Source: Escallonia rubra | Taxonomy: Eukaryota; Streptophyta; Magnoliopsida; Escalloniales; Escalloniaceae | DNA length: 64,000 nucleotides | Assembly (NCBI GenBank): GCA_033065855.1 | Contig: JAVXUO010000939.1 | Coordinates: 1 to 64,000 of the forward strand | Direction of reading: 5' to 3' | In this document: piece after piece, positions 2,240-28,615 of the stretch | Position numbering within the stretch: the stretch's first letter is position 1 | Layout: each line of letters opens with the position of its first letter | The notes under the pieces: model-generated | Database searches by the model: none | What the model saw: only the letters and a program-made list of their open reading frames with translations | What the model was told of the DNA's origin: nothing | Translations under genes and position numbers: made by a program

Positions 2240-5200
2240 ATGGAAACAGAGTGGTGTTGTAAGGCCAAGCATTGCTTGCCGGACCCTGAGCTCACACCAG
2301 GTGCTGCCCCGCCCTGCTATGAAGACGGCCCTCGACCGCAGGCCGAAGATCTTGAAGAAATTAACCTGGCTGACCCGGACGAGGAACCTCGACTGACCTA
2401 CATCGGCACGAAACTCGCCCCGGGACGAAGAGAAGGACTGATTACTCTCCTCCGCGAATATCGCGACGTATTGGCATGGAGTTACAACGAAATGCCTGGA
2501 TTGGATCCTGCCTTGGTGACGCACCATCTCAACATTGCTAACGGGTTCAGCCCTGTTCGACAGCATCCGCGAACCTTCCGCCCCGAGCTCGAACTGAAGA
2601 TCAAGCAAGAAATTGAACGACTTTTACAAGCTGGTTTCATTGAACCTATCACTCATCCTATCTGGTTGGCTAATGTCGTTCCTGTGCAGAAGAAGAACGG
2701 CCAAGTCCGCATTTGTATTGATTTTCGGGATCTGAACAAGGCATGCCCCAAAGACGAGTTCCCGCTGCCCAACATCGACATGCTCACCGAGGCAGCTGCC
2801 GGACACGAAACCTTATCTTTCATGGATGGTTTCGCGGGCTACAACCAAATCCGGATGAACCCCGACGATTGTGCCAAGACAGCCTTCCGTACCCCTATGG
2901 GTAACTTCTGTTGGAAAGTCATGCCCTTCGGCCTTAAGAACGCGGGTGCAACATATCAAAGAGCAATGACAGCGATCTTCCATGACATGATACACCGCAC
3001 AGTAGAAGACTACGTCGACGATCTTATCATCAAATCTAAAAAGGAAAGTGAACATCTCACGGACCTTCGGGCAGTCTTCGATCGTTGTCGACAATACAAC
3101 ATGCGGATGAATCCGTTGAAATGTGCCTTTGGAGTCTCCTCCGGCAAATTCCTCGGCTTTTTGGTCAGTCGACAGGGCATTGACATTGACCCTTCTAAGG
3201 CCGCCTCTATCCAAGAGATGCCCCCTCCCAAGAGCACCAAACAATTGAAGAGCTTCCTTGGCAAGATCTCTTACCTTCGCCGATTCATCCCTGCCTTGGC
3301 CGAACTCATCACGCCCTTCCAGCACTTGACGCGTAAGAGCGCACCGTGGAGTTGGCGTGCGCCCCAACAGCAAGCATTCGAACAGATCAAGGCGGTTCTC
3401 ATGTCGCCGCAGACCATGGTCGTGCCACAACGAGGTATACCACTCTTGCTTTATTTGACCTCCACGCCCAGGTCCATAGGGGCATTGCTTGCCCAAGAGG
3501 TGGATGGGGGGGAGCGCCCGGTTTATTATCTCAGCCGATCAATCAGGGGCCCCGAAGCCAATTACTCTGAGCTCAAGAAGCACTGCTTAGCCTTGGTCTA
3601 CGCCTCGCAGAAATTCAGACACTACTTCTTGTCACACCAGATCACGCTTATCACCAAGGCCGATCCATTACGGTACATGCTCACGCGCCCTGCCCTGTCT
3701 GGCCGGCTTACTCGTTGGTTGTTGTTATTGGCCGAGTTCGGCCTGTCCATCAAAAACCCTACAGCTTTACGGAGTCAAGCACTCGCGGACCTCTTGGCCT
3801 TCTTCCCACGCCAACAATATGAACCGACCTCAGATCAATTGCCTGGGGAAGAGACGGCCCTGACCTCTGACATTGGTGAATTATGGACGCTTGAGTTCGA
3901 CGGCTCAGCCACTAGCAAAGGACCCCATGGAGCTCCCCTCCGGCAGGGGGGTGCCAGCATTGTCCTTCGAAATTCAGAGGGTGTTACCACATCCCTATCC
4001 TTCAAGCTTGCATTCCCGGTGTCTAACAATGAAGCTGAGTATGAGGCACTTGTCATCGGCCTCATGATGGCTGCCAGTATGGGGGCTAAGGCATTGTGCG
4101 TAAAAGGGGACTCGAACTTGATCGTGAAGCAGGCCGACGGGGAGTTCGCAGTCAAGGAGCCAGCCTTGGCGCCTTATCGTGCCTTGGTGCAATACTTGGA
4201 AGGAAGATTTGGCCATATCCAGTACGAACATCATAACAGGTGCCACAACCGACATGCAGACAGCTTGGCCACGATCACGTCAAAGATGGAGGTTGATGGT
4301 GAGCAGCGAATGCTAACCATCATCAAGAGGACGGAACCGTGCACATCATTGAACCTAGTCCCGAAGGACATTACTACAGACGATTGGAGGCAACCAATTG
4401 TCGACCAACTTAAGGCGCCATCTCTTGCTACCGCATCTACCCTTGCAGATTTCTTGATGTTGGGAGACGTCTTGTACAAGCGATGCCCCGGAGGCACTCT
4501 GGCCAGGTGCTTGGCACCGGAAGAAGCAAAGCACAAATTACAGTTCGGCCATCAGAAGTGTTGTGGCCTCGACGGTCCCCCTTTATACCGTCGCCTCCAG
4601 CGTATGGGTCTCTATTGGCCATCAATGGCCAAGGATGCCTCAGACATACAAGGAGACTGCCCCGAGTGTTCGTACGCACCGGACAATACTGAAGCTCTTG
4701 TCGTTAATGTCGAAGGTGACTGGCGCCAACCTTTCATCAGGTACTTATCCCACGGTGTTCTACCGCCTGACCGCAGCTCGGCACGATCTATCAAGCGCAA
4801 GTCGGTCAAGTATTTTGTGACGGAAGGAGAGTTGTTCCGCAAGGGATTTTCAGGACGCACCCTGCGATGCCTGCAGGGTGCCCAGACAGTCGAGGTGATT
4901 AACGAAGTGCATAACGGTGATTGTGGTGAGCATCAAGGCTCTCAGAAGTTGTATGCAGAGTTGCTAAGGATGGGATACTACTGGCCAACTATGGAATCTG
5001 ACGCGATCTCTCATGTCCGACACTGCCAACCCTATCAGAGACACGCCGACAGAATGCACACGCCGACGTCCGATCTCCGCATAATCTTAGCCCCTTGGCC
5101 ATTTCACTCCTGGGCTCTCGACCTCATAGGCCCCATCCACCCAACATCACGGGGTCACACTTGGATCATGGTTGCAACGGAACGTTTCACAAAGTGGGTC

Positions 5201-5956
5201 AAAGCCATACCTCTACAGCGAGCCACGGGAGGCGCCATCACCAACTTCTTGCGCGAACACATCGTCTGTCGCTTTGGTATCCCCCGGTGTATCATATCCG
5301 ACAACGGCACGCCATTCATCAACAGGGATGTCCGAGCTTTCATGGAAGGATACAACATCAACCACGCTACATCAACTCCTTACTACCCACAAGGGAATGG
5401 TCAAGCCGAAGCTTCTAACAAAACTCTACTGCGGGTATTATCACGAATGGTCCATGACGTAAGTGGTTCATGGTCCGAGAAGTTAAGCCTCGCACTTTGG
5501 GCCTACAAAACCTCCAAGCATACAGCGACAAAGACCACACCCTTTTCCCTTGTCTACGGGGACGAGTGTGTCATACCAGCCGAGATTACAGTCGCATCAG
5601 CCAGGCTCTCCCTAAGTAGTGGGCTTGGAGAGGAAGAAACCAGAATGACCGCCCTTGAAGGACTTGATGAAAGGAGAGCCAATGCCTTGCGCCGTATGAA
5701 GAAATACCACGAACAACTCACAAAGGCATATGGAAAGACTGTGAAGCAACGAACATTCGTCGAGGGCGACCTTGTTCTTCAAGCCGCCAAACATGTACGC
5801 GCCAACATGTCAGCCCCCAAGTTCACACCGAATTGGGAAGGACCATTTCAAGTGCATGAAGCCAGAGACAACGGCTCCTACCTCCTGCTCAACACGGAAG
5901 ACGGACAAATCACGGCACCTATCAACGGTCGCTATTTGAAGAAGTTTTATGCATGA
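2240..5956 (+). CDS. pol polyprotein: RT, RNase H, archaeal-type RNase H, integrase
   Basis: This is a single 1,238-residue open frame. Reverse transcriptase occupies about residues 120-330, with the FRDLNKACPKDEFPLP motif and the YVDD catalytic box. The classic RNase H domain follows (YYLSRSIRGPEANYSE). A second, archaeal-type RNase H begins at LEFDGSATSKG, which is diagnostic of Tat. There are two successive DWRQP...HQxx...YYWP modules before the integrase core, which carries ALDLIGP, ISDNGTPF and GQAEASNKT (the D, D, E positions). The frame ends in a short chromodomain-free tail (NWEGPFQVHEARDNGSYLL). It makes and integrates the element's cDNA. The frame looks whole, which argues for fairly recent insertion, but no LTR pair is available for dating. 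Confidence 0.92.
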   Translation: METEWCCKAKHCLPDPELTPGAAPPCYEDGPRPQAEDLEEINLADPDEEPRLTYIGTKLAPGRREGLITLLREYRDVLAWSYNEMPGLDPALVTHHLNIANGFSPVRQHPRTFRPELELKIKQEIERLLQAGFIEPITHPIWLANVVPVQKKNGQVRICIDFRDLNKACPKDEFPLPNIDMLTEAAAGHETLSFMDGFAGYNQIRMNPDDCAKTAFRTPMGNFCWKVMPFGLKNAGATYQRAMTAIFHDMIHRTVEDYVDDLIIKSKKESEHLTDLRAVFDRCRQYNMRMNPLKCAFGVSSGKFLGFLVSRQGIDIDPSKAASIQEMPPPKSTKQLKSFLGKISYLRRFIPALAELITPFQHLTRKSAPWSWRAPQQQAFEQIKAVLMSPQTMVVPQRGIPLLLYLTSTPRSIGALLAQEVDGGERPVYYLSRSIRGPEANYSELKKHCLALVYASQKFRHYFLSHQITLITKADPLRYMLTRPALSGRLTRWLLLLAEFGLSIKNPTALRSQALADLLAFFPRQQYEPTSDQLPGEETALTSDIGELWTLEFDGSATSKGPHGAPLRQGGASIVLRNSEGVTTSLSFKLAFPVSNNEAEYEALVIGLMMAASMGAKALCVKGDSNLIVKQADGEFAVKEPALAPYRALVQYLEGRFGHIQYEHHNRCHNRHADSLATITSKMEVDGEQRMLTIIKRTEPCTSLNLVPKDITTDDWRQPIVDQLKAPSLATASTLADFLMLGDVLYKRCPGGTLARCLAPEEAKHKLQFGHQKCCGLDGPPLYRRLQRMGLYWPSMAKDASDIQGDCPECSYAPDNTEALVVNVEGDWRQPFIRYLSHGVLPPDRSSARSIKRKSVKYFVTEGELFRKGFSGRTLRCLQGAQTVEVINEVHNGDCGEHQGSQKLYAELLRMGYYWPTMESDAISHVRHCQPYQRHADRMHTPTSDLRIILAPWPFHSWALDLIGPIHPTSRGHTWIMVATERFTKWVKAIPLQRATGGAITNFLREHIVCRFGIPRCIISDNGTPFINRDVRAFMEGYNINHATSTPYYPQGNGQAEASNKTLLRVLSRMVHDVSGSWSEKLSLALWAYKTSKHTATKTTPFSLVYGDECVIPAEITVASARLSLSSGLGEEETRMTALEGLDERRANALRRMKKYHEQLTKAYGKTVKQRTFVEGDLVLQAAKHVRANMSAPKFTPNWEGPFQVHEARDNGSYLLLNTEDGQITAPINGRYLKKFYA

Positions 5957-6540: not shown

Positions 6541-9500
6541 CTAGCTAAGCCGGGCCCGCATCTCAGAAACCTCTCGCGTCACATCTGTCAACGCCGCATC
6601 AAGCATACGCCTACGGCCCTGACACGCCACCTCCTGCGCTCCTACCACAGTCAGTCCAGCCATGGCCTCAACACTCGGCCCTCTACCTCGGACATAGTCG
6701 GACAACCACTCCAACTGGAAACCAAAAGCTACGAACGGCTCGAGCTCTGACATAAACTCTGACCTCATCTCTGAACTCCAAGTCGAGGTCGGCACCGTAC
6801 TAAGTGTCGCCAGCCAGTCCACAAGTGCGCCAAACATCGCCTTGGCAAATGCCATGCCCCGCATGGTAATAGAGCCCTCAAATGTCTGGGGTTGTCTCGC
6901 CCTAATCATCTCCAACCGCTGGACCACCGCATCAGACAACCCGAGGCCCTCCCAGGACATACCGTCTGCCTGCCCGACTGAAGACCCGCCACTAGCAGCA
7001 TCAACCCCTGTCGCCTTACCACCCACTGATCTCATGCCAACGGTGGCAGCATGCATCGCTAACAGAGCATCACCCGCATCCACGGCTGACCCCGACAATG
7101 TATCCGCTATCGGCTCCACAACAGACGAATCAGGTACACCGCGTCGTGGCAACGAATCTCTAACCACCGCATGTGTGGTCGACAACCCGGCATGTGCCCC
7201 CGCATGTGCCCACCAATCATCACCCTCAAACGTATGACCCATCGGGCCGCCGAATACCTCATCGACCAAGACAGGTGACGGGCTCGAATGACCAACTGGC
7301 ACGACCGGCTCCACAACATATGCTGCTGTCTGCTCCGGGTGACCGACTGGCTCCACAATGTAGGCCGCTGCCTGCTCTACCGCCGCGGCCTCCTCGAAGG
7401 CCTCACTATCCATCGGCTCCCCCTCATAGGCCGGCTCGGCCTCCATCTCCTCGACCTCATCGGCCGCATCTACATCTGCCTCCTCATCCTCCTCAGCTGC
7501 CTCAAGATCCATCCCCTCAGTATCATCAGTAATGGCCTCGGCATACTCTGTGGTATCGTCTGACTCCACGTCCATGGCACCACCATCATCATCGAACTCC
7601 TGTCAAAAAAAAAAAAAAGGGAACCGAGCATTAGAGAACGCTTAACATGATAATTGGCAACTGTACAACGAAAGTAAAGCATTACACTAACCTCGGAGTC
7701 ACACTCCTCCAGCACCTCTCGCGACCTCTTCGGCCTACGTCCACCACCCGTCGAAGGACCTGCGCCTGTCCGCTGTGCACCCACCATCATACCTACTCTC
7801 AATGACGAAATGGGACCCTTGCCAGCACCCGGCACCCTCGGACCACCTGCTGCTGCCGGCGCCCGTGACGCGCGTGCTGGCACCGGTTCATCTGATACGC
7901 CTGTAAGTAGTACCGACATGCCGTTCTGCCGCGCGACCTGCGCTGTAACCAGTCCCAGTCCTCTGTCCCCCGCAAAGACATCGACCTGCTGCCTGTCGGA
8001 TGGCTCCTGCGACAACCACTCCGACCATGTCGCCAGTACCCGATCCCACCATCGCGCATACTCAACCGTCGCTACTCCCGTCGATAGCGTCCCGGGCCTC
8101 CTCCACTCCTCTGTCGGTACCGGCCACTTTCGCGCCCACTTTAAGATCGTATACCCAAAAGCCTTCCTCACCTCCCACGCCCTCGTATAGCTGCATGGGG
8201 GCTCTAAATCATAACCAAAGCTCGAGGACAATCGATCGGGGCTGTATCTCGCCACGTAATATCTGTTCTCAGCCGGCTTCCCGCCATCATCAGTCAATAC
8301 GGGTAGCCACCCTGGAAAGTACGCCACTAGTAAGGCCACCGCCGTCTCCGTCAGCTCATCTTGACCGTGTAGTCGCACTATAGTGTCCTGCAGATCCATC
8401 CATGGAGGAGTACCGTACGAATAATGCATGCCGGTATACGCACGGGGAACGCACTCGTCGCGATCGTCAAAAATGTCCGCCAAATCACGCCCGGGCCTCT
8501 TCCCACCCGCCCAGGCATATACTCGGCCACCTGCGTACCAAGCCGAAACCTGACGTGACTTGCCCGGCCGAGTCACCGTAACCATCCGCGGCGACGGATG
8601 TGCTAAGGGAAGATCACGAGGCCGATAATCCATGTAGACCTCGAATAGATACCGCTGCAAGAACATCCAGTCTACGTACGTCGTCACCTGATAGCGTCCA
8701 TACGACCTCTGTACATCATTTGCAAACTGATCTAGACGAGAGTACTGTGTGCCTAAGTAAATGGGGGCCAGCCCGACGCGCCCCCCACCAGCCATACGTA
8801 CAGCCAACTTGAATACCCTCGGGGACACGCCATCCTCCGGCGTCCCCTCAAATACAAACCTACAGGCATAAGAGCATACAATGTCTATCATAACCTTGTC
8901 GCCCTATTCTGAACGTAAACTCTATTGCATGGCAATATGACTACACTATCTTTCCGACACGTTTTTTTCTTTTTCTCTAAGTATAAAATTCAGCATTCTA
9001 CGCATACAAGAACAATGGAAGTACAACATGCAACAATACTAAAGGGAAGACATTATAAGCACGTACCTCGACAAGAACATGGCAAGAAACCCCGCTAGCT
9101 CGTATCTCTTGTCCTTATAGCAAGAACCCGCGCGAAAATTGCTCACCGACGCAGACTTCTGACCGGGTAACGCAGTCGCCGTACCATAGAAGTATTTGAG
9201 CCACCCGATGTACGTACCCTTGCGATTGCTCCTTATCACCGAGGCAAACCCCTGCAGTTCCTTTACCGTCAACCGTTCTGCCGCCGTCAACTCCAGCTCA
9301 CAAGCATTCTCCGTACCGTGCATGGGCAACCCCGTCAACATCATCACGTCGAGAAGCGTTGGCCCAATCTCCCCAAACGCCGTGATGAACGTATGCGTCT
9401 GCGAGCTCCATCTCGAAAGCAACAACGCCAAGCCCTTAACGTCCCTCACCGGATCAATCACCTTGAACGTCGCCTCTATCGCGGACACCAATCCCAACGC

Positions 9501-10061
9501 CTCCAATCTCTCCCCCCAACCCGACTGCTCCAACATATACATACACCAAAAATTCCACCCCACCGGCATGGTATTATGGCCCTTGAACATCACTGGCGAC
9601 CACGGCACATCTAGTCGTTCCACCAACAAACCCGGCATGTACCTCGGCGACATCACCGGAGCGACCCCCCCGCTCGGCGCACGAACATACGGCGAAGGAA
9701 CCATCGGACTCTCTGCCATAGACGACGCACCGAAAGGACCCACAAACACATCCGCACCCACTCGCTGGCCAAGCTCCCTCCAAAGCTCCTTGGGTGGGCA
9801 TCCGGGCACCGCCCCCTTCGCCATCAACAAAATATTGCTGTGGCTTGGCGTTGCATCAAAGCTCCTCGCCCTACCAAGGAAGCTCAACGGCACCTCCGCT
9901 TCTTCAACCGGCGCGACGTCGTCATCATCAAACATGTCGCCCGGCGCTAACGTTGATCGCCCGCTAGCTCCGCCCCGCCGTCGCACACTTTGCTTCTTCC
10001 GTGTCTTTTTCGGCAATCCACCAACATTCCCCTTTGCGCCGTGAGAAACATCTCCGCGCAC
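6541..10061 (-). CDS. plant mobile domain (PMD) protein gene, antisense passenger in the Tat element
   Basis: Three long minus-strand open frames lie at 10,061-9,067, 8,859-7,692 and 7,599-6,541. Two gaps of about 207 and 92 bases separate them, and both are bounded by GT and AG in the right places. The reading phase carries across both, so this looks like a three-exon gene of about 1,070 residues. The first exon holds the PMD signature: WGERLEALGLVSAIEA, then ITAFGEIGPTLLDVMMLTGLP, like the phosphatase-7-long-form/MAIN family. The second exon continues with FVFEGTPEDGVSPRVFKLA and ends in basic, low-complexity sequence. The third exon is very acidic (about residues 720-850) and ends in a short helix. 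PMD proteins have roles in silencing and genome stability in MAIN/MAIL1, and PMD genes are also known as passengers of MULEs and Ty3 elements. The function here is unknown. It is transcribed, if at all, from within the element's 3' region. Confidence 0.8.
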
Positions 10062-21437: not shown

Positions 21438-23808
21438 TGAGATGGATAGATTGATTGAATATCTAACTGCACAAGGTGAAAACAATTACAGCAGGGTCCT
21501 GGCCAACAAAAAAAATACAAAAATAGATATCATTTTGACGAGAAGTCAACTGTTGTGTACTTTGCAGATACCACACCTAAAGAAAAGGGCACAGGTCATT
21601 GCACCCATAAAAGACAGATAAATATACGAAAAGCGCATGGGTAAGAAAAAACATCATGGGAAAACAATGTAAAAGCATGAAGGGATATGTGCAATACAAA
21701 TCCAGGCAAACATACATAAAAGTAGCATCTTCTCTCTTCTACACATAAAACTATAAGGATTTATAGATCAACCATGACTTAATGCAGCTATTAAGGGAGT
21801 GGTTCGTAGTGAAACAGGTGAGGGATTGGTACTACTAGTGAGCGCTCTAGTATCTGCATCAAATTACAGAAAATCCACATAAACCTCAAGAAAGATTAGG
21901 ACTTGCTAGAAAGCCAGCACAAAATGCTGGAAAAATGTAAGTGCAAAGGCTTAACCTAAGGTGCTGGGTGCCAAATTAAAAATCTTACAGCTAATGCCTG
22001 CACGTTTTCTTGTAAGAGCTGCTGCTCTAGTTGGTTTATACGGATCTATCTGTAAGTAAAAATCAGTATGATATGCTAAGCATCTCTTTCGCCACAGACA
22101 AATCTAATCGTTGCTTTTCTTAATAACTACGCAAGTAGAATTAATCAAAAGCAAGAAGACTTAATCACCGCAAAGCTAGGGCCACTCCACCTAGGACACC
22201 ATGTAAACTGGCCAATAGCATGCAAATGGACAAGGACAAGATCAGAGTGTAGTAAAGGCTGAGCACTGTTTGACTGCATACAGTATCAAGTTCCTGAATT
22301 ACGATGCAGCACAGACTCAGAGTCTATATAACAATTGTAAGCACCTTGACAAGATATGAACTAGAGTCACAGAGTTTTCACCCTTCACTTATGTGCTTAT
22401 AAAACTTATAAAGCGAATTCTGAAAGGGTGAGACATGGCACAGAAAATGGCAGATGGACAGATGAAAGATAAAAGCAAGGAAATGTCTGCTTGCAGCATC
22501 AAATATCAATGAAAACGGCTAACTCTTCGCCATTTTCAAGCCTACATAATGAATATGTGACTGATGATGAATGACTACATTTCTCATACTCTAACCCAAA
22601 CCCCACGATAAAGATATTTCTAGCATAATACGCTTTAGCTCCATCACACCCCATTCCTCACCCCCAAAATCACATTACACACAACCAAAGTGTCTGCCAA
22701 AAAGAAAGGGGAATTGTCAAACAAATGTCCATAATTCTCTGTGAGTTCAACCTCGCTTCCATCACACAGAAGCCTTGAAATGAACAAGGCATGACCCACA
22801 CAATCAAAACTCTCTAGACATGATTCTATACCTAGTAAATTGCGAATTAGGTGCATCAACAGCTACCCACTGGGCACCAACCCTTCCAGCAAAGTAAACT
22901 TCTTCAAAATTAGTGAAGCGAAGTTTAGGACCAAAAAAAAAAATTTGGTCTGCGTTGCTTACTTGACTTTCTATCAAGAGATAATAGCAAAAGAAATACT
23001 GATCGTATGGCCCTGTTTGTTTCATGGAAGGTGCTTCAAGGAAAATGCTTTCCGGAATATGCTCTCTAGAAAATAGGAGTTCCTGAAAATTTCATTAATT
23101 AAAAGTACCTAAACAAAAAACAAAAGATTGAAAGAAAACAGTTAAAAATCATAAAAACCATCAACAACAATTCAATGACATTGTCCCATTTACATACATG
23201 TTTCTAGCAAAAAAATAAATGCAAAACAAATGTGCTTCTGCGTATACACATGTATGCATACACGTGTATATGCATATAGGAATTTCTCCAGAACTCAAAG
23301 ACGTTTTTCCAGCGAGTGGGAAACCAGTGGCACCACCATGGACACAAACGAGACAACAAATATAGTTTTGTAAAGGATCCAAGGCCTGGATTCCGAACAC
23401 GTATCCAAAATCATCGGTTGCATACTTATAAGACCAGCGCAAGAAGGAGATGATAAGGCTAGCCTTTGGACCGGAAGCCCTCTTGGTCTCCCTTATCAAC
23501 CAGAGGCCAAAGACTTACTTGCGACTTTTGTCGAACACCACATCTGCACTACCCTCAACACCGTCGAACCCCATAAGACCAAACCCGTTTCACCAATTTG
23601 CCCCAAGAATCATCTGACCAACAATGGGTTTCACCTAACCCCTGCATCCCCCTCCTCACCGCGGTCAGTTTCTGGGTTATCCGACCACCGTAGCAGCCCT
23701 AGTCGCCACATCCACTTTCCCCACGGCCGCTTCGTACACCGCCGTCGTCAACAGCGGCTCAGGTTCGGTTCCTGGTGATTTTCTTCGGCCCCAGCCCTTC
23801 ATTTTCGG
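21438..23808. other. INTS9 upstream region and intergenic DNA
   Basis: The INTS9 promoter must lie just above 21,438 on the minus strand. No clear TATA box was identified. Further up, two minus-strand stretches look faintly exon-like but match no family I recognise: about 22,920-22,810 (LRFTNFEEVYFAGRVGAQWV) and about 23,500-23,300 (WSYKYATDDFGYVFGIQA). They could be alternative 5' exons, remnants of an old gene or chance. The rest shows no repeats or RNA genes. Confidence 0.4.
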
Positions 23809-24052
23809 TGCGCTAAAGAGTTGTCAAAAGGGCCGGCGGCCCGCGGGCTGGCCCGACCCGGCCCGCTTCTGGCCCGACCCGGCCCGCTTCTGGCCCGGGT
23901 TGGTCCGGCCCTCTCGGTGAACAGTGACGGCCCTAAACAGTTGGGCTTTGGGCCTGGGCTTGGACCAGGCCAAGAAAATCTGGAAAAAAGCCCGGTTCTG
24001 GGCCGCCCCGAAAAAAACCCGGTTTGGCCCAGTTTGGGCCCGGTTCAACATC

Positions 24053-25639
24053 TATCTCTGGCTCGGCTTCACTGGGGAACAGAACTATGCCATGATAGTA
24101 ATGGTAGTAAGCGGAAAAGCAAGCACAAGACTGGACCCAGAGCGTGGCACTTGGGATTCCGAGTTCGTCGGCCACATCCGAAACCCATGGAATGAATGGG
24201 TTGTTGATGAGGCAGGAAACGGGTTGACCCGCGTCCTCGTGTACCTTGAGCATGCGAGGAAGCACCTCCTTGCCTACACGTTCAAGCTGTGCCACGTACG
24301 CGTCAAGATCTCCATGTCTAGAGTCATCCTCTCCCCAACCATCTTCAAAGAATTCGAACCTGATCATACCATCACCAACCGGTGTTGGTTCATCAGTGAT
24401 GTTGCTCTCTTTCCTCATCTGTTTGCCGACGGTTTCAGGGGTTGAGAAGGTAACAAGAAGGCCTTTGGAAGCAAGGAGCTTTCCAAGCCTGAGTAACGGG
24501 TTGACATGTCCTTGGCCTGGGAGGAGACTAGGAAGACATGGGAAAGAGCTTCACATCTTTGCTAGGGATGGCAATTAGATCCGCACCCGGCGGATCTCCG
24601 CCCCGCCCCGCCCCGTTAGGAGCGGGTTATTTTGACTTTGACCGGGTTAAGGGGCGGGTATGGTATTTTTTTTTAAATCTGCAGCGGGTTAGGGGCGGGT
24701 ATGGTATTCTGTCCAACCCGCCCCGGTATCCGACCCGCCCCTAACCCGTACCCGCCCCGTTATACTTATCATATGCACTAACCAATCTTAGCCGTCCATC
24801 CATAAATATAAATAGTCACAAACCCTAAAATTTTCTAATCTTCTCTTCTCTCCTCTCTGCCGATCTGCCGCCCCACCTCCTTGACTCCTTCTCTTCTTCC
24901 TCTTCCTCGCACCGTCGGCGTCTGCCTTTGCCTCCGCGACCACCGTCTGCAACATAGTGTATGTTCACCATGGGATCGGGGTGAATGCAAGATAGTTGCC
25001 TCCTTTCGTCAAAACAAACAAGCTTAAGGAATGGTTTGATTTCCCTTCGGCTTGCAGAGCTTTGTAGATTGGCATCGGCTATGGCTTTTACAGCTTAAAG
25101 AATGCTAGGTACATGTGTATTTATGGGGCCGAAGGAGTCAGCTCTGTGCAAGGACATGGAATCTTGGCCGGAGCTTCTTGTTTGAGATTTTGCTGTATGA
25201 TAGGAAACCATTGATTGCATTTTTTTTTTCTTTTGACAAATACCCTATTGCATTTTACAAGGATAGTTTTTTGTCTTTTCTGCTTGCATTGTTCCTGATG
25301 TTGCTTTAGAGCTTTTGCTCCTGGTAGGTTAGGTTGCAATGGAATTCTTTTACCGGTGAAAATGTATATGCTGTACAATAGAGAACAACTAGAAGAAGAT
25401 AGGGGCAAGAAATGCCAAAGTATAAACAGTACTGGGATAAACACCAAGGGCGGGGCGGATCGAGGTGGGGACGGTTTTTCTAAACTAACTTAGGATCGGT
25501 TATGGTATAATATTTTTTTGACCCGGTGGCGGGGCGGGGCGGGGCTGGTCGAGATTCTAGTGCTACCGGGGCGGGTACGGATTTTATGAGATCCGCATCC
25601 GACCCGCCCCATTGCCATCCCTAATCTTTGCGAGCCCAT
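24053..25639 (-). pseudogene. UGT84-type glucosyltransferase, N-terminal fragment, broken
   Basis: UGT84 enzymes are cytosolic UDP-glucosyltransferases that make glucose esters of phenolic acids such as gallic or cinnamic acids. The minus strand reads [16 protein letters not shown] from the start codon at 25,639-25,637. After a jump in frame it continues [20 protein letters not shown]. The stretch from there to about 24,053 is open and family-like ([44 protein letters not shown]). Only about the first 175 of some 480 residues are present, and the C-terminal sugar-binding PSPG box is absent. Three lesions are visible: a 1,061-bp hAT in the early codons, one missing T after the FLVS codons, and loss of everything past the EIDV segment where a GGGCCC-rich arm begins. 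It cannot make an enzyme. Confidence 0.88.
24563..25623. mobile_element. non-autonomous hAT transposon, 1,061 bp, inserted in the UGT84 fragment
   Basis: The perfect 13-bp terminal inverted repeats are TAGGGATGGCAAT and ATTGCCATCCCTA. The perfect 8-bp target duplication ATCTTTGC lies at 24,555-24,562 and 25,624-25,631. Subterminal GGCGGGGCGG/CCGCCCCGCC repeats are typical of plant hAT ends. The interior holds a leader-like stretch with TATAAATA near 24,806 followed by CT-rich sequence, but no transposase frame. The intact duplication means it is young relative to its host pseudogene. Confidence 0.93.
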
Positions 25640-26552
25640 TTTCTTTCTCAAGGTAGAAGATAGCTATGGGTGAGTAATGGAAGGGGATGGCTAGCACAGT
25701 GCAAATTTATAGCGCCACAAGAAATGTCATGCCATTGCTGGAACCAAATTTCTTTTTGGTAACCATATTCCTTTCCTTTCCTTTCCTTTTTTTTCCTCCT
25801 TTCATATCTTATCATAAGAGTTCTCAAAAGGATTCATACAAAATTTAAAGACGTATAGAAAATACTAGTAGTTTTCAAGCGAGAGAATGAAAATGATAAA
25901 GCCACAAAGCTTAAGTCAATACTTGGATCATGATCATAAATACTGTAAACGTGTGACTGTATGTGCTTAGCAACCAAAAAATATATCTTTATAGATTTTA
26001 ACAACGAAAATATATGTTTTTAACAATAGGAAACATGCTACGCCACGTTTGTTTATTTCAAATATTTCACCATGCATTTTCTCACAAAATTACCGTAATT
26101 CAAGCCTTTACTTTGAATAACAAGAAAATGCAACAACAAAAAAATTTAGGGCCCGGGCCCGGCCCAAGCCCGGCCCTAGATATTGGGCTTAGGGCCAGGG
26201 CTTGGACTGGGCCCAGATTTCCCCTTCATCTGGCCCAGCCCGGCCCCGACCCAGTTTCACGGCAGGCCCGATGGGCCCGGGCTGGGCCGGCTCATTGACA
26301 TCTCTATGCGCTTTTGCCCAGACGAAAAGTTCAATAACAGCGTTTTCTTTCCTTGACGATTCGACGCTAAATAACATGGACTTCATGAATCTCATAGTCA
26401 ACGTGAGTGGACGTAGTGATTCTTTCGTGATAAAGAGGGGAGGAAGAGGCGGCAGAGGTAAAGGTGGCGGAGGCAGTGTGGCAGAGGCAATGGAGTCAGG
26501 AAAGAATGAGACACGTGAGGAATGACGGGTTTTTTGGAAAAATGACTTCTCC

Positions 26553-28217
26553 AGTTATAGATGTCAAAAGGGTCGGGCTGGCCCGGCCCATTGGTGAACA
26601 GTGTAAGCCCAATAGTTTAGGGGTTTGGACCTGGGCTTGGACCAGGCCGAAGTTTTAGAGAAAAAAGCCAGGGCCCGGCTCGGCCCAAAAAAGCCCGGGT
26701 TTTGGCCCGGCCCGAAAAAAGCCCGAAATCGGCCCTTTTTTGGCCCGGGCTTTGGCCCTGATTTGGCCCAATTTGTGGCCCGATTTTTTGCCCTTTTCTG
26801 GCCCAAAAGTGGGCTGGCCTAATTTTGGCCCAGGCAAAGTTACCTATTTTGGTCAACTTTGGTTCTATCTTGTTATCAAACTAGCAATTGAAATTGAAGC
26901 ATGAGTTGTATCTGTTGAATGTTCATGGCGAGTACAAGCCAAATGTTATTTACGTACTATGTATTTCAGTTTTTGTTTCTGCTTTTTATATTTGATCATC
27001 TCAACAGATTTCTAAATTTTAATTGATGTCAAGCAAGTCATATGTAAACAATCGTATCTTCTGTTGTTGCCAAATTAATATAAAGCTTTTATATCTTTTG
27101 ATCTACAAGTTAATATCAAGAAAGGGTTTTACTTAAATTACATTCGAAGCACTCTTTCTTTCTATATTTGTTATTTTTTATTTTTTTTATTTTTCGTTTG
27201 TGGTTGATATTCTTTACTTTTTTTAGTATAAGAACTCTCATTCTTCTCAAGCCCTAAACGATGTCGACAAAGCCTAAGGCCTGCAAAAATAACTATTTGC
27301 TTCCTTTTTTTGTCTTATGATGGCACGATGTAAGATTTGGGGGAATCGGCATTGTAATATTCTGACCGATATTTATGAAAGCTTTATTATTGAAAATAGT
27401 GGTCTTTGGAAAGATTTCTTTTTGGTGACTTTGTTATTGCGTACACAGGTTTATAATAAAATTTCCTTCACGAAATTAAAATTTCCAACGGTAATAAAGT
27501 GAACGAGATTTTGCGACAAATATTCATCACTGCATTGAGATTTTGGACTCAAAAATTAAGGAACGAATTTCTCATGATTTTTAGTAACAAAGGATAATGT
27601 CTAAATATTTTTCATATATAGATAGTACCCTTAACCTTAACATTTAAGGATATGTTAATATCTAAAAGTTTCCAGTTGCAAGAGGTTAAAATAAATACTC
27701 GTTTGTAATTAAAGAGCCATAACTCATGTTTCTTTAAATGGCCAAAGAATTTGAATGTAACAAGAAAAGATGCTATTTTATCTTCATATATCTCATTATT
27801 GTTGTTGTTTGATCTACTCTATTTTTCTTTGACATTTACAGGTTTTACACCATATTACTAAAGATATTGAATTTTGCACTTAAAATCTGTGTGATGCGGG
27901 CTAGAACAACTAGTTTTTGCACTTAATCCGTGGTTAATGGTCAACCAACATCAATTTGCCTTTTTGAAAGAGGGTTAATTTATGAGAAAGTGATTGTATA
28001 CTCAGTGGTCCGTATACAGAAACTTTGCCCTTTGTTGAAGAATAAGTCTTTATAACAAGAAGTTAGGAAGAAAGGAAAAAAAATTGGATTGAGCTCGGGC
28101 TCGGCCCAAGCCCGGCCCTAGATATTGGGCCTAGGGCCAGGGCTTGGACTGGACTAAATATTGGAGGCCCGGTGGGCCTGGGCTGGGCCGGCCCAAGCCC
28201 GGCCCATTGACATATAT
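26553..28217. mobile_element. hAT-like non-autonomous element of the same arm family, 1,665 bp
   Basis: The flanking 8-mers ACTTCTCC (26,545-26,552 and 28,218-28,225) match perfectly. The left arm starts AGTTATAGATGTCAAAAGGG and carries CCTGGGCTTGGACCAGGCC, as in the arm at 23,817. The right arm (about 28,090-28,217) shares GGCCCAAGCCCGGCCCTAGA with the arm at 26,147 and ends CCCATTGACATATAT. The 1.2 kb interior is AT-rich and shows no transposase or recognisable gene. Confidence 0.65.
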
Positions 28218-28237
28218 ACTTCTCCTTTATATTTCAA

Positions 28238-28615
28238 GTTTTGCCCTTAACAATCTATTTTTAATATTTAATTATTTCTTTACCACATTTTGAACCTTAT
28301 TTACCTATCTACCCTACTTGTAGAAATTGTAGTTCTAAACAGACATTTCAAGTGAAGGAAACGTGGTTTGGAACCACGTTTTCAATATGTTTACTTTTAT
28401 TTGTCTAATTTAAACAAAATTGAAAGAAATATTGGTTTCTAACAGAGATTTCATAGTAAGGGTTGCTTGAAAACGTGGTTTGGAACCACGTTTTCTTCGA
28501 TTGAAATCTCTGTTTGGAACCACGATTTCCAAAAGTGGGGTAGATAGGTAAATAAGGTTCAAAATGGGGTAAAGAAGTAATAAAGTGTGAAAAATGGATT
28601 ATTAAAGGCAAAAAC
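28238..28615. mobile_element. fold-back MITE with about 85-bp terminal inverted repeats
   Basis: The left end GTTTTGCCCTTAACAATC pairs with the right end GATTATTAAAGGCAAAAAC. Further in, AACCTTATTTACCTATCTAC pairs with GTAGATAGGTAAATAAGGTT. The centre carries two copies of the short palindrome ACGTGGTTTGGAACCACG, near 28,362 and 28,472. No clear target duplication was found, so the superfamily is open (Mutator-like is possible). Confidence 0.8.

Follow-up and report, generated by a model that had tools for sequence, protein, structure and literature searches.

A Pack-type hAT element carrying the putative promoter and coding start of a UDP-glycosyltransferase gene

The window analysed here is a stretch of 64,000 nucleotides (C1864:1-64000) from a 566-Mb assembly whose genes point to a plant. 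It contains two hAT elements in direct orientation, at 23816-26306 (element 1) and 26553-28217 (element 2), which lie 246 bp apart and have GGCCC-rich arms and inverted termini in common. Element 1 is very probably a Pack-type hAT into which the promoter region and first ~175 codons of a UDP-glycosyltransferase (UGT) gene were copied and which was then moved in trans to at least two sites, a relative on contig C1226 having later undergone a swap of its cargo. The evidence comprises paired arms with target duplications, the donor gene, identical junctions at two sites, the marks of a single capture, an empty site and a replaced cargo. The phenomenon is already known, and element 1 is a well-documented further case of gene capture by plant hATs. 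Here the piece that moved joins an upstream region, TATA box included, to the beginning of a metabolic gene, and such a combination could give rise to new expression patterns.

The captured gene piece and its donor

Element 1, delimited by its termini and arms, its relatives on C1855 and C519 and an empty site, measures 2,491 bp, including a nested element. Its GGCCC-rich left arm (23816-24046, plus strand) matches the left arms of transposase-bearing relatives at 78-88% over the main matched pieces and parts from them right after GGCCCGGTTC; UGT sequence starts there, with nothing between arm and cargo. The cargo lies on the minus strand. It consists of 516 bp of frameshifted coding sequence, from codon ~3 to codon ~175 (24047-24562; 96% to C2058:128932-129445), and, beyond the nested element, of the start of the coding sequence (25632-25639, with the native ATG at 25637-25639) and the captured upstream DNA (25640-26067). 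The latter, a putative promoter for which we claim neither activity nor host function, has TATAAA at 25706-25711, at the same distance from the ATG (72 bp) as in the donor. It spans 428 bp, against 517 bp in the donor, the window copy having lost ~77 bp. The right arm (26068-26306, plus strand) completes the element.

The coding piece was found in seven places: three element copies, one 52-base match in C1226 and three in a single UGT cluster on C2058. When the upstream DNA was compared with intact UGT loci, as the first-pass annotation had proposed, only C2058:127987-129453 among the three cluster places also matched most of the upstream half. This donor is an uninterrupted 488-aa UDP-glycosyltransferase reading frame (PF00201, 3.5e-23, profile search), and the best solved structures for its protein are glycosyltransferases (8inh at 745 bits). 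The captured stretch, C2058:128929-129970 (~1.04 kb), is continuous through coding and upstream DNA, and its ~175 codons represent the first third of the gene. The third UGT sequence of the cluster matches within the coding piece only. The paralogue at C2058:112122-113573 was rejected as donor, since it matches no more than ~70 bp of the DNA preceding the ATG and differs more from the copies (37-43 differences over 524 sites) than C2058:127987-129453 does (21-30 over 523-524). As expected of a Pack-TYPE element, a host gene fragment with its donor elsewhere lies between transposon ends, and element 1 has no transposase of its own, its interior being fully accounted for by the UGT piece and the nested element. 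The cargo may belong to subfamily UGT84, the analysis itself reaching the level of UDP-glycosyltransferase. No report of UGT84 cargo in hAT or Pack-TYPE elements was found among the literature matches listed (10 of 48), which is not proof of absence.

The first-pass annotation had placed only the 5' end of the UGT gene and its upstream DNA between the arms. It recognised the cargo correctly, but 43% of element 1 is taken up by an unrelated nested element (24563-25623; 1,061 bp), which runs from TAGGGATGGCAA to TTGCCATCCCTA and has at least 10 further copies at 89-97%. It sits in codon 6 of the captured gene, between two identical copies (8/8) of ATCTTTGC at 24555-24562 (UGT codons 3-6) and 25624-25631. 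By this 8-bp duplication, it appears to be of hAT type (its transposase was not sought). The cargo copies on C1855 and C519, described below, lack it.

No copy can encode the enzyme: only the first third of the gene is present, and this remainder carries stops or a frameshift, the reading frame from the native ATG ending at codon 52 in the window (nested element removed), 159 in C1855 and 79 in C519. Synonymous and non-synonymous changes relative to the donor number 8/13, 17/13 and 13/14 in the three copies, counts too small to judge selection. Selection might have retained the captured promoter, either for use as a mobile regulatory module or for producing small RNAs that target UGT genes, and the TATAAA at -72 is indeed kept in the donor and in all three copies. 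We consider this very improbable: none of the three copies has an intact coding part, the promoter piece in the window has been shortened, and, with only 18-19 differences over 523 sites between the window copy and the other two, retention needs no selection.

Movement of the cargo and the family behind it

The same cargo, with the same arms and the same two junctions, is present at C1855:54329-55809 (L009) and C519:109821-111274 (L010). The C519 copy is flanked by the duplication GTTGGATG (8/8) and the C1855 copy by one of 6/8, and the window flanks of element 1 are unlike those of this pair. The first-pass annotation had proposed that the family mobilised the UGT piece. Mobilisation of the cargo is borne out: the same piece with the same junctions stands at an unrelated site with its own duplication. 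These junctions, together with GTTGGATG and the uninterrupted site described below, show arms and cargo moving as a unit, again as in Pack-TYPE elements. Taking C2058:112122-113573 as the outgroup, all three copies have 8 derived sites in common, the C1855/C519 pair has 7 and the donor alone has 6. No site unites exactly one copy with the donor, one site unites the donor with two of the copies, and one unites the window copy with C1855. These patterns are explained by a single capture and subsequent movement; several independent captures are ruled out by the identical junctions and the 8 common derived sites.

The flanks of element 1 (23240-23816 and 26307-26552) are repeated gene-like sequence, the left one with 15 other places in the genome. 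An empty allele had been suggested as a check, and an empty site was found in paralogues of the flank: four of the seven compared (C2520, C1002, C1389 and C3144) are uninterrupted at the insertion point, where they have a single copy of TGCCCTTT or TGCTCTTT and neither arms nor UGT sequence; the window has TGCGCTAA-element-TGCGCTTT. Among the other three, similarity is confined to the left side in one, and in two it covers the left side and picks up again ~130 bp to the right. These paralogues bear on the idea that a diverged tandem copy of the UGT gene was resident at the window locus and that two elements inserted on either side of it. The piece does resemble a gene, and each arm might in principle mark a separate insertion, but the arm-cargo junctions are identical at an unlinked site and the four uninterrupted paralogues lack the UGT piece. 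The common junctions and the empty-site paralogues together rule out two elements flanking a resident gene, and we give the idea practically no credence.

The family that would have carried the captured piece is large. Its left-end pattern TAGAGWTGTCAAAAGGGCC has 386 exact matches in the genome (191 + 195), against 0 for a reversed-pattern control. At fixed ends, the flanking 8-mers of 23 elements agree at 5.83 of 8 positions on average, compared with a mean of 2.26 and a maximum of 3.27 over 2000 shuffles of the right flanks, and 15 of the 23 have a duplication of at least 7/8. The arms thus occur as pairs with 8-bp duplications, one of the points on which the first-pass annotation had staked its reading. 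Chance likeness of GGCCC-rich sequence is ruled out by the 386 termini against none in the control and by the duplications. Both termini of the 23 elements were located by pattern, with the ends of L055 and L060 adjusted by hand to diverged letters, and both members of the related pairs L009/L010 and L013/L014 were kept. Left out were L015, L018, L023, L025 and L026, in which the pattern found no ends; L056, L057, L059, L061, L063 and L064-L071, in which an end was missing, lay beyond the fetched stretch or was unmatched by the pattern; and the cargo-swapped element on C1226, whose right end is unrecognisable and which lacks a duplication. Outside this count, L071 has CTTACACC on each side, as judged by eye. 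L013 and L014 (C778 and C1126) have one duplication in swapped versions, CCAATAAG/CCAAGAAG and the reverse, and their flanks are similar, a pattern that might arise if ends were exchanged between related copies of a locus.

Two hallmarks of hAT elements, which tend to favour nTnnnnAn targets, are present in the family, namely the short terminal inverted repeat (TAGAGWTGTCAA / TTGACATCTCTA) and the 8-bp target-site duplication. A 3.9-kb element (L048:235-4155, on C1226, minus strand), which has the family arms and a 7/8 duplication, contains a transposase open reading frame (ORF) of 635 aa at L048:985-2892, with hAT dimerisation and RNase-H-like domains (PF05699, 8.2e-23; PF14372, 2.6e-10; profile search), and a separate 115-aa ORF upstream of it. 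Relatives were taken from the tops of the candidate lists (the best 40 of 5,304, 1,785 and 1,450 candidates scored), copy numbers being lower bounds and the fetched sets non-random; for interiors, 8 of 39 other left-arm places and 10 of 39 other right-arm places of element 1 were fetched. Six of the eight left-arm relatives continue into sequence of the L048 transposase element (~84%, or 89% and 79% for separate pieces of L068), and in five the match extends as far as the transposase ORF, while L066 and L071 lead to another interior. Among the right-arm relatives, most of the transposase ORF region is present in L057 and L063. The match of L061 is limited to 259 positions directly following this region, and those of L059 and L060 to 37-50 bp; L054, L055, L058 and L062 have one common AT-rich interior, and no left end was seen in L056. 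These transposase-bearing relatives with the same arms back the membership of the family in the hAT superfamily, for which the first reading had used the term hAT-like. The interior of L060 (C531:77600-80480) is distinct and may represent a further capture. Besides itself, it has 39 matches, one full-length (92%, at C2886), 8 to the right third (94-96%) and 30 short, among which no arm-free donor was identified.

In the window itself, the ends of element 1 were set by the family terminus TAGAGWTGTCAA/TTGACATCTCTA and those of element 2 by its duplication. The shared arms and common orientation reported at first pass stand (left arms 76% over 67 nt, right arms 95% over 60 nt), with the start of element 1 shifted by the family terminus from 23,817 to 23816. 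The flanking 8-mers had been given as 6/8 and 8/8, and these values hold with some slack at the ends; strict canonical ends give 1/8 and 3/8. For element 1, they are TGCGCTAA at 23809-23816, overlapping the canonical first base of the element, and TGCGCTTT at 26307-26314; for element 2, ACTTCTCC stands at both 26545-26552 and 28218-28225, only when the left end is slid by 3 bases and the right by 1. The outermost bases of both elements are mutated, and by duplication the window copies are among the worse-preserved members of the family. In a control with the same kind of slack (up to 3 bases left and 2 right), 47 of 502 mismatched left/right flank pairs scored at least 6 and none scored 8. The 6/8 duplication of element 1 with slack is weak evidence by itself; its insertion is settled because the empty site is seen in the flank paralogues.

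Cargo replacement and the route of capture

The relative on C1226 (L048:4486 to about 5980) has the left arm and arm-UGT junction of element 1, followed by 55 bp of UGT sequence (L048:4691-4745). Then comes ATTACTATCATGGC (L048:4746-4759), a 14-nt reverse complement of the UGT sequence at the break, for which the chance expectation is ~9e-7 (130-bp neighbourhood, equal bases). From the last three bases of this snippet (GGC) onwards, ~948 bp match C2212:62374-63334 (926 of 961 columns, 96%), a piece with a DOG1-domain reading frame (PF14144, 1.2e-11, profile search). The right arm has an inner stretch that, by eye, is common to the UGT-bearing copies and absent from L054, L058 and L062. The simplest order would be UGT cargo first and DOG1 second, and the element looks like a cargo replacement via template-switching repair. 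The replaced cargo with its inverted snippet is the most unusual part of the material, and was seen in one element. The transposase-bearing L048 element lies only ~330 bp from this copy, in the opposite orientation.

A sequence of events can be proposed from these observations. A transposase-bearing family member would have lost its interior, and repair machinery would have copied ~1.04 kb of the UGT gene, with TATA-box promoter region and ~175 codons, into the gap. The chimera, having kept both arms, could then have been moved in trans to at least two sites by the transposase of other family members. A derivative on C1226 would have had most of its UGT cargo replaced by the DOG1-domain gene piece, and the window copy would have been struck by the nested element. 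The inverted snippet is what might be left if a broken end folded back, copied itself briefly and then switched template. Copying during break repair, probably with template switching, is favoured over cutting because no arm or terminus was found near either donor (0 in 36 kb at the UGT donor and 0 in 1.9 kb around the DOG1 donor).

Whether cut-and-paste transposons acquire genes by copying in break repair or by the mobilisation of neighbouring pairs is still under debate. In the tandem-insertion model (PMC8903248), two neighbouring elements flanking the UGT piece would have been mobilised as a composite with the DNA between them. The window holds two same-orientation members 246 bp apart, the precursor layout that this model predicts, and 12 of 15 local maize hAT pairs in that paper are in one orientation. 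However, neither donor has arms or termini over the distances just given, the donor reading frame is uninterrupted, the left arm runs directly into the cargo and the 14-nt inverted snippet fits copying repair better. For element 1, a composite origin is in our judgement unlikely. A single genome here displays the donors, the junctions, an empty site, relatives with a transposase and a derivative whose cargo was replaced, and the fact that no element ends were found beside the donors favours copying.

Several points weigh against a Pack-type hAT that copied its cargo by repair and then moved. The own duplication of element 1 is only 6/8, and its left terminus deviates from the family (AAGAG for TAGAG). 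The left flanks of the C1855 and C519 copies are 95% alike over 2.5 kb, so that these count as one insertion, which may be either one insertion duplicated or two haplotypes. The repair mechanism draws on one inverted snippet, and the left UGT junction lacks clear microhomology. The C1226 element, which has no duplication and whose last ~8 bases misfit the family terminus, may not have moved after the swap. A broader view, which we hold to be conceivable though somewhat less than probable, is that the family exchanges cargo serially: an element with a gene piece would break internally, its end would snap back on its own cargo, copy a few bases and jump to another gene, leaving the old cargo edge as a fossil next to the new cargo. 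In that case, the family would document captures as they accrued, some of them including core promoters spread around the genome.

Known capture systems and neighbouring features

Gene capture by plant hAT elements has been published for Ds2 and Ds-l4 in maize (PMC3260210), Hatvine-6 in grapevine (PMC2528002) and Pack-hATs (PMC8903248). The Pack-hATs of maize and rice (PMC8903248) resemble the family of element 1 in that a piece of a host gene is enclosed by hAT ends, copies are multiple and local pairs have the same orientation; by comparison, donor, empty site, transposase-bearing relatives and cargo replacement are seen here in one plant genome, with no element ends found near the donor loci. 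Capture by Ds2 and Ds-l4, of which 2 and 9 elements, respectively, carry gene pieces, is called rare for the superfamily (PMC3260210). These elements, like element 1, are hATs with ends kept and interior filler, whereas the present family has TAGAGWTGTCAA termini and GGCCC-rich arms (not aligned with Ac/Ds), and its cargo includes the upstream region and start codon. Hatvine-6 is likewise a hAT family with common ends and variable interiors that often match genes, a likeness of description; its members are said to share transposase sequence, whereas element 1 has none (PMC2528002). Animal Pack-TIRs have been attributed to gap filling and to fork switching with microhomology (PMC8277862). There, as here, template switching would explain capture and multicopy elements moved after it, whereas in this plant an inverted snippet of the earlier cargo remains where the switch would have taken place.

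Element 2 (26553-28217) is a non-autonomous family member; the AT-rich filler described for it at first pass is indeed its interior, and it has at least 20 further copies at 88-94%. Directly to its right lies an inverted repeat (28239-28385 and 28467-28613) with 147-nt arms that are 85% complementary and 81 nt apart, which is either a foldback element or a hairpin locus. Elsewhere in the window, retrotransposon reading frames occupy 2240-5956, with reverse transcriptase, RNase H and integrase domains, and 908-2182, the preceding frame, with an aspartic protease. Pieces of a plant mobile domain protein (PF10536; the first below the curated cut-off) lie on the minus strand at 7470-8891 and 9039-10061.

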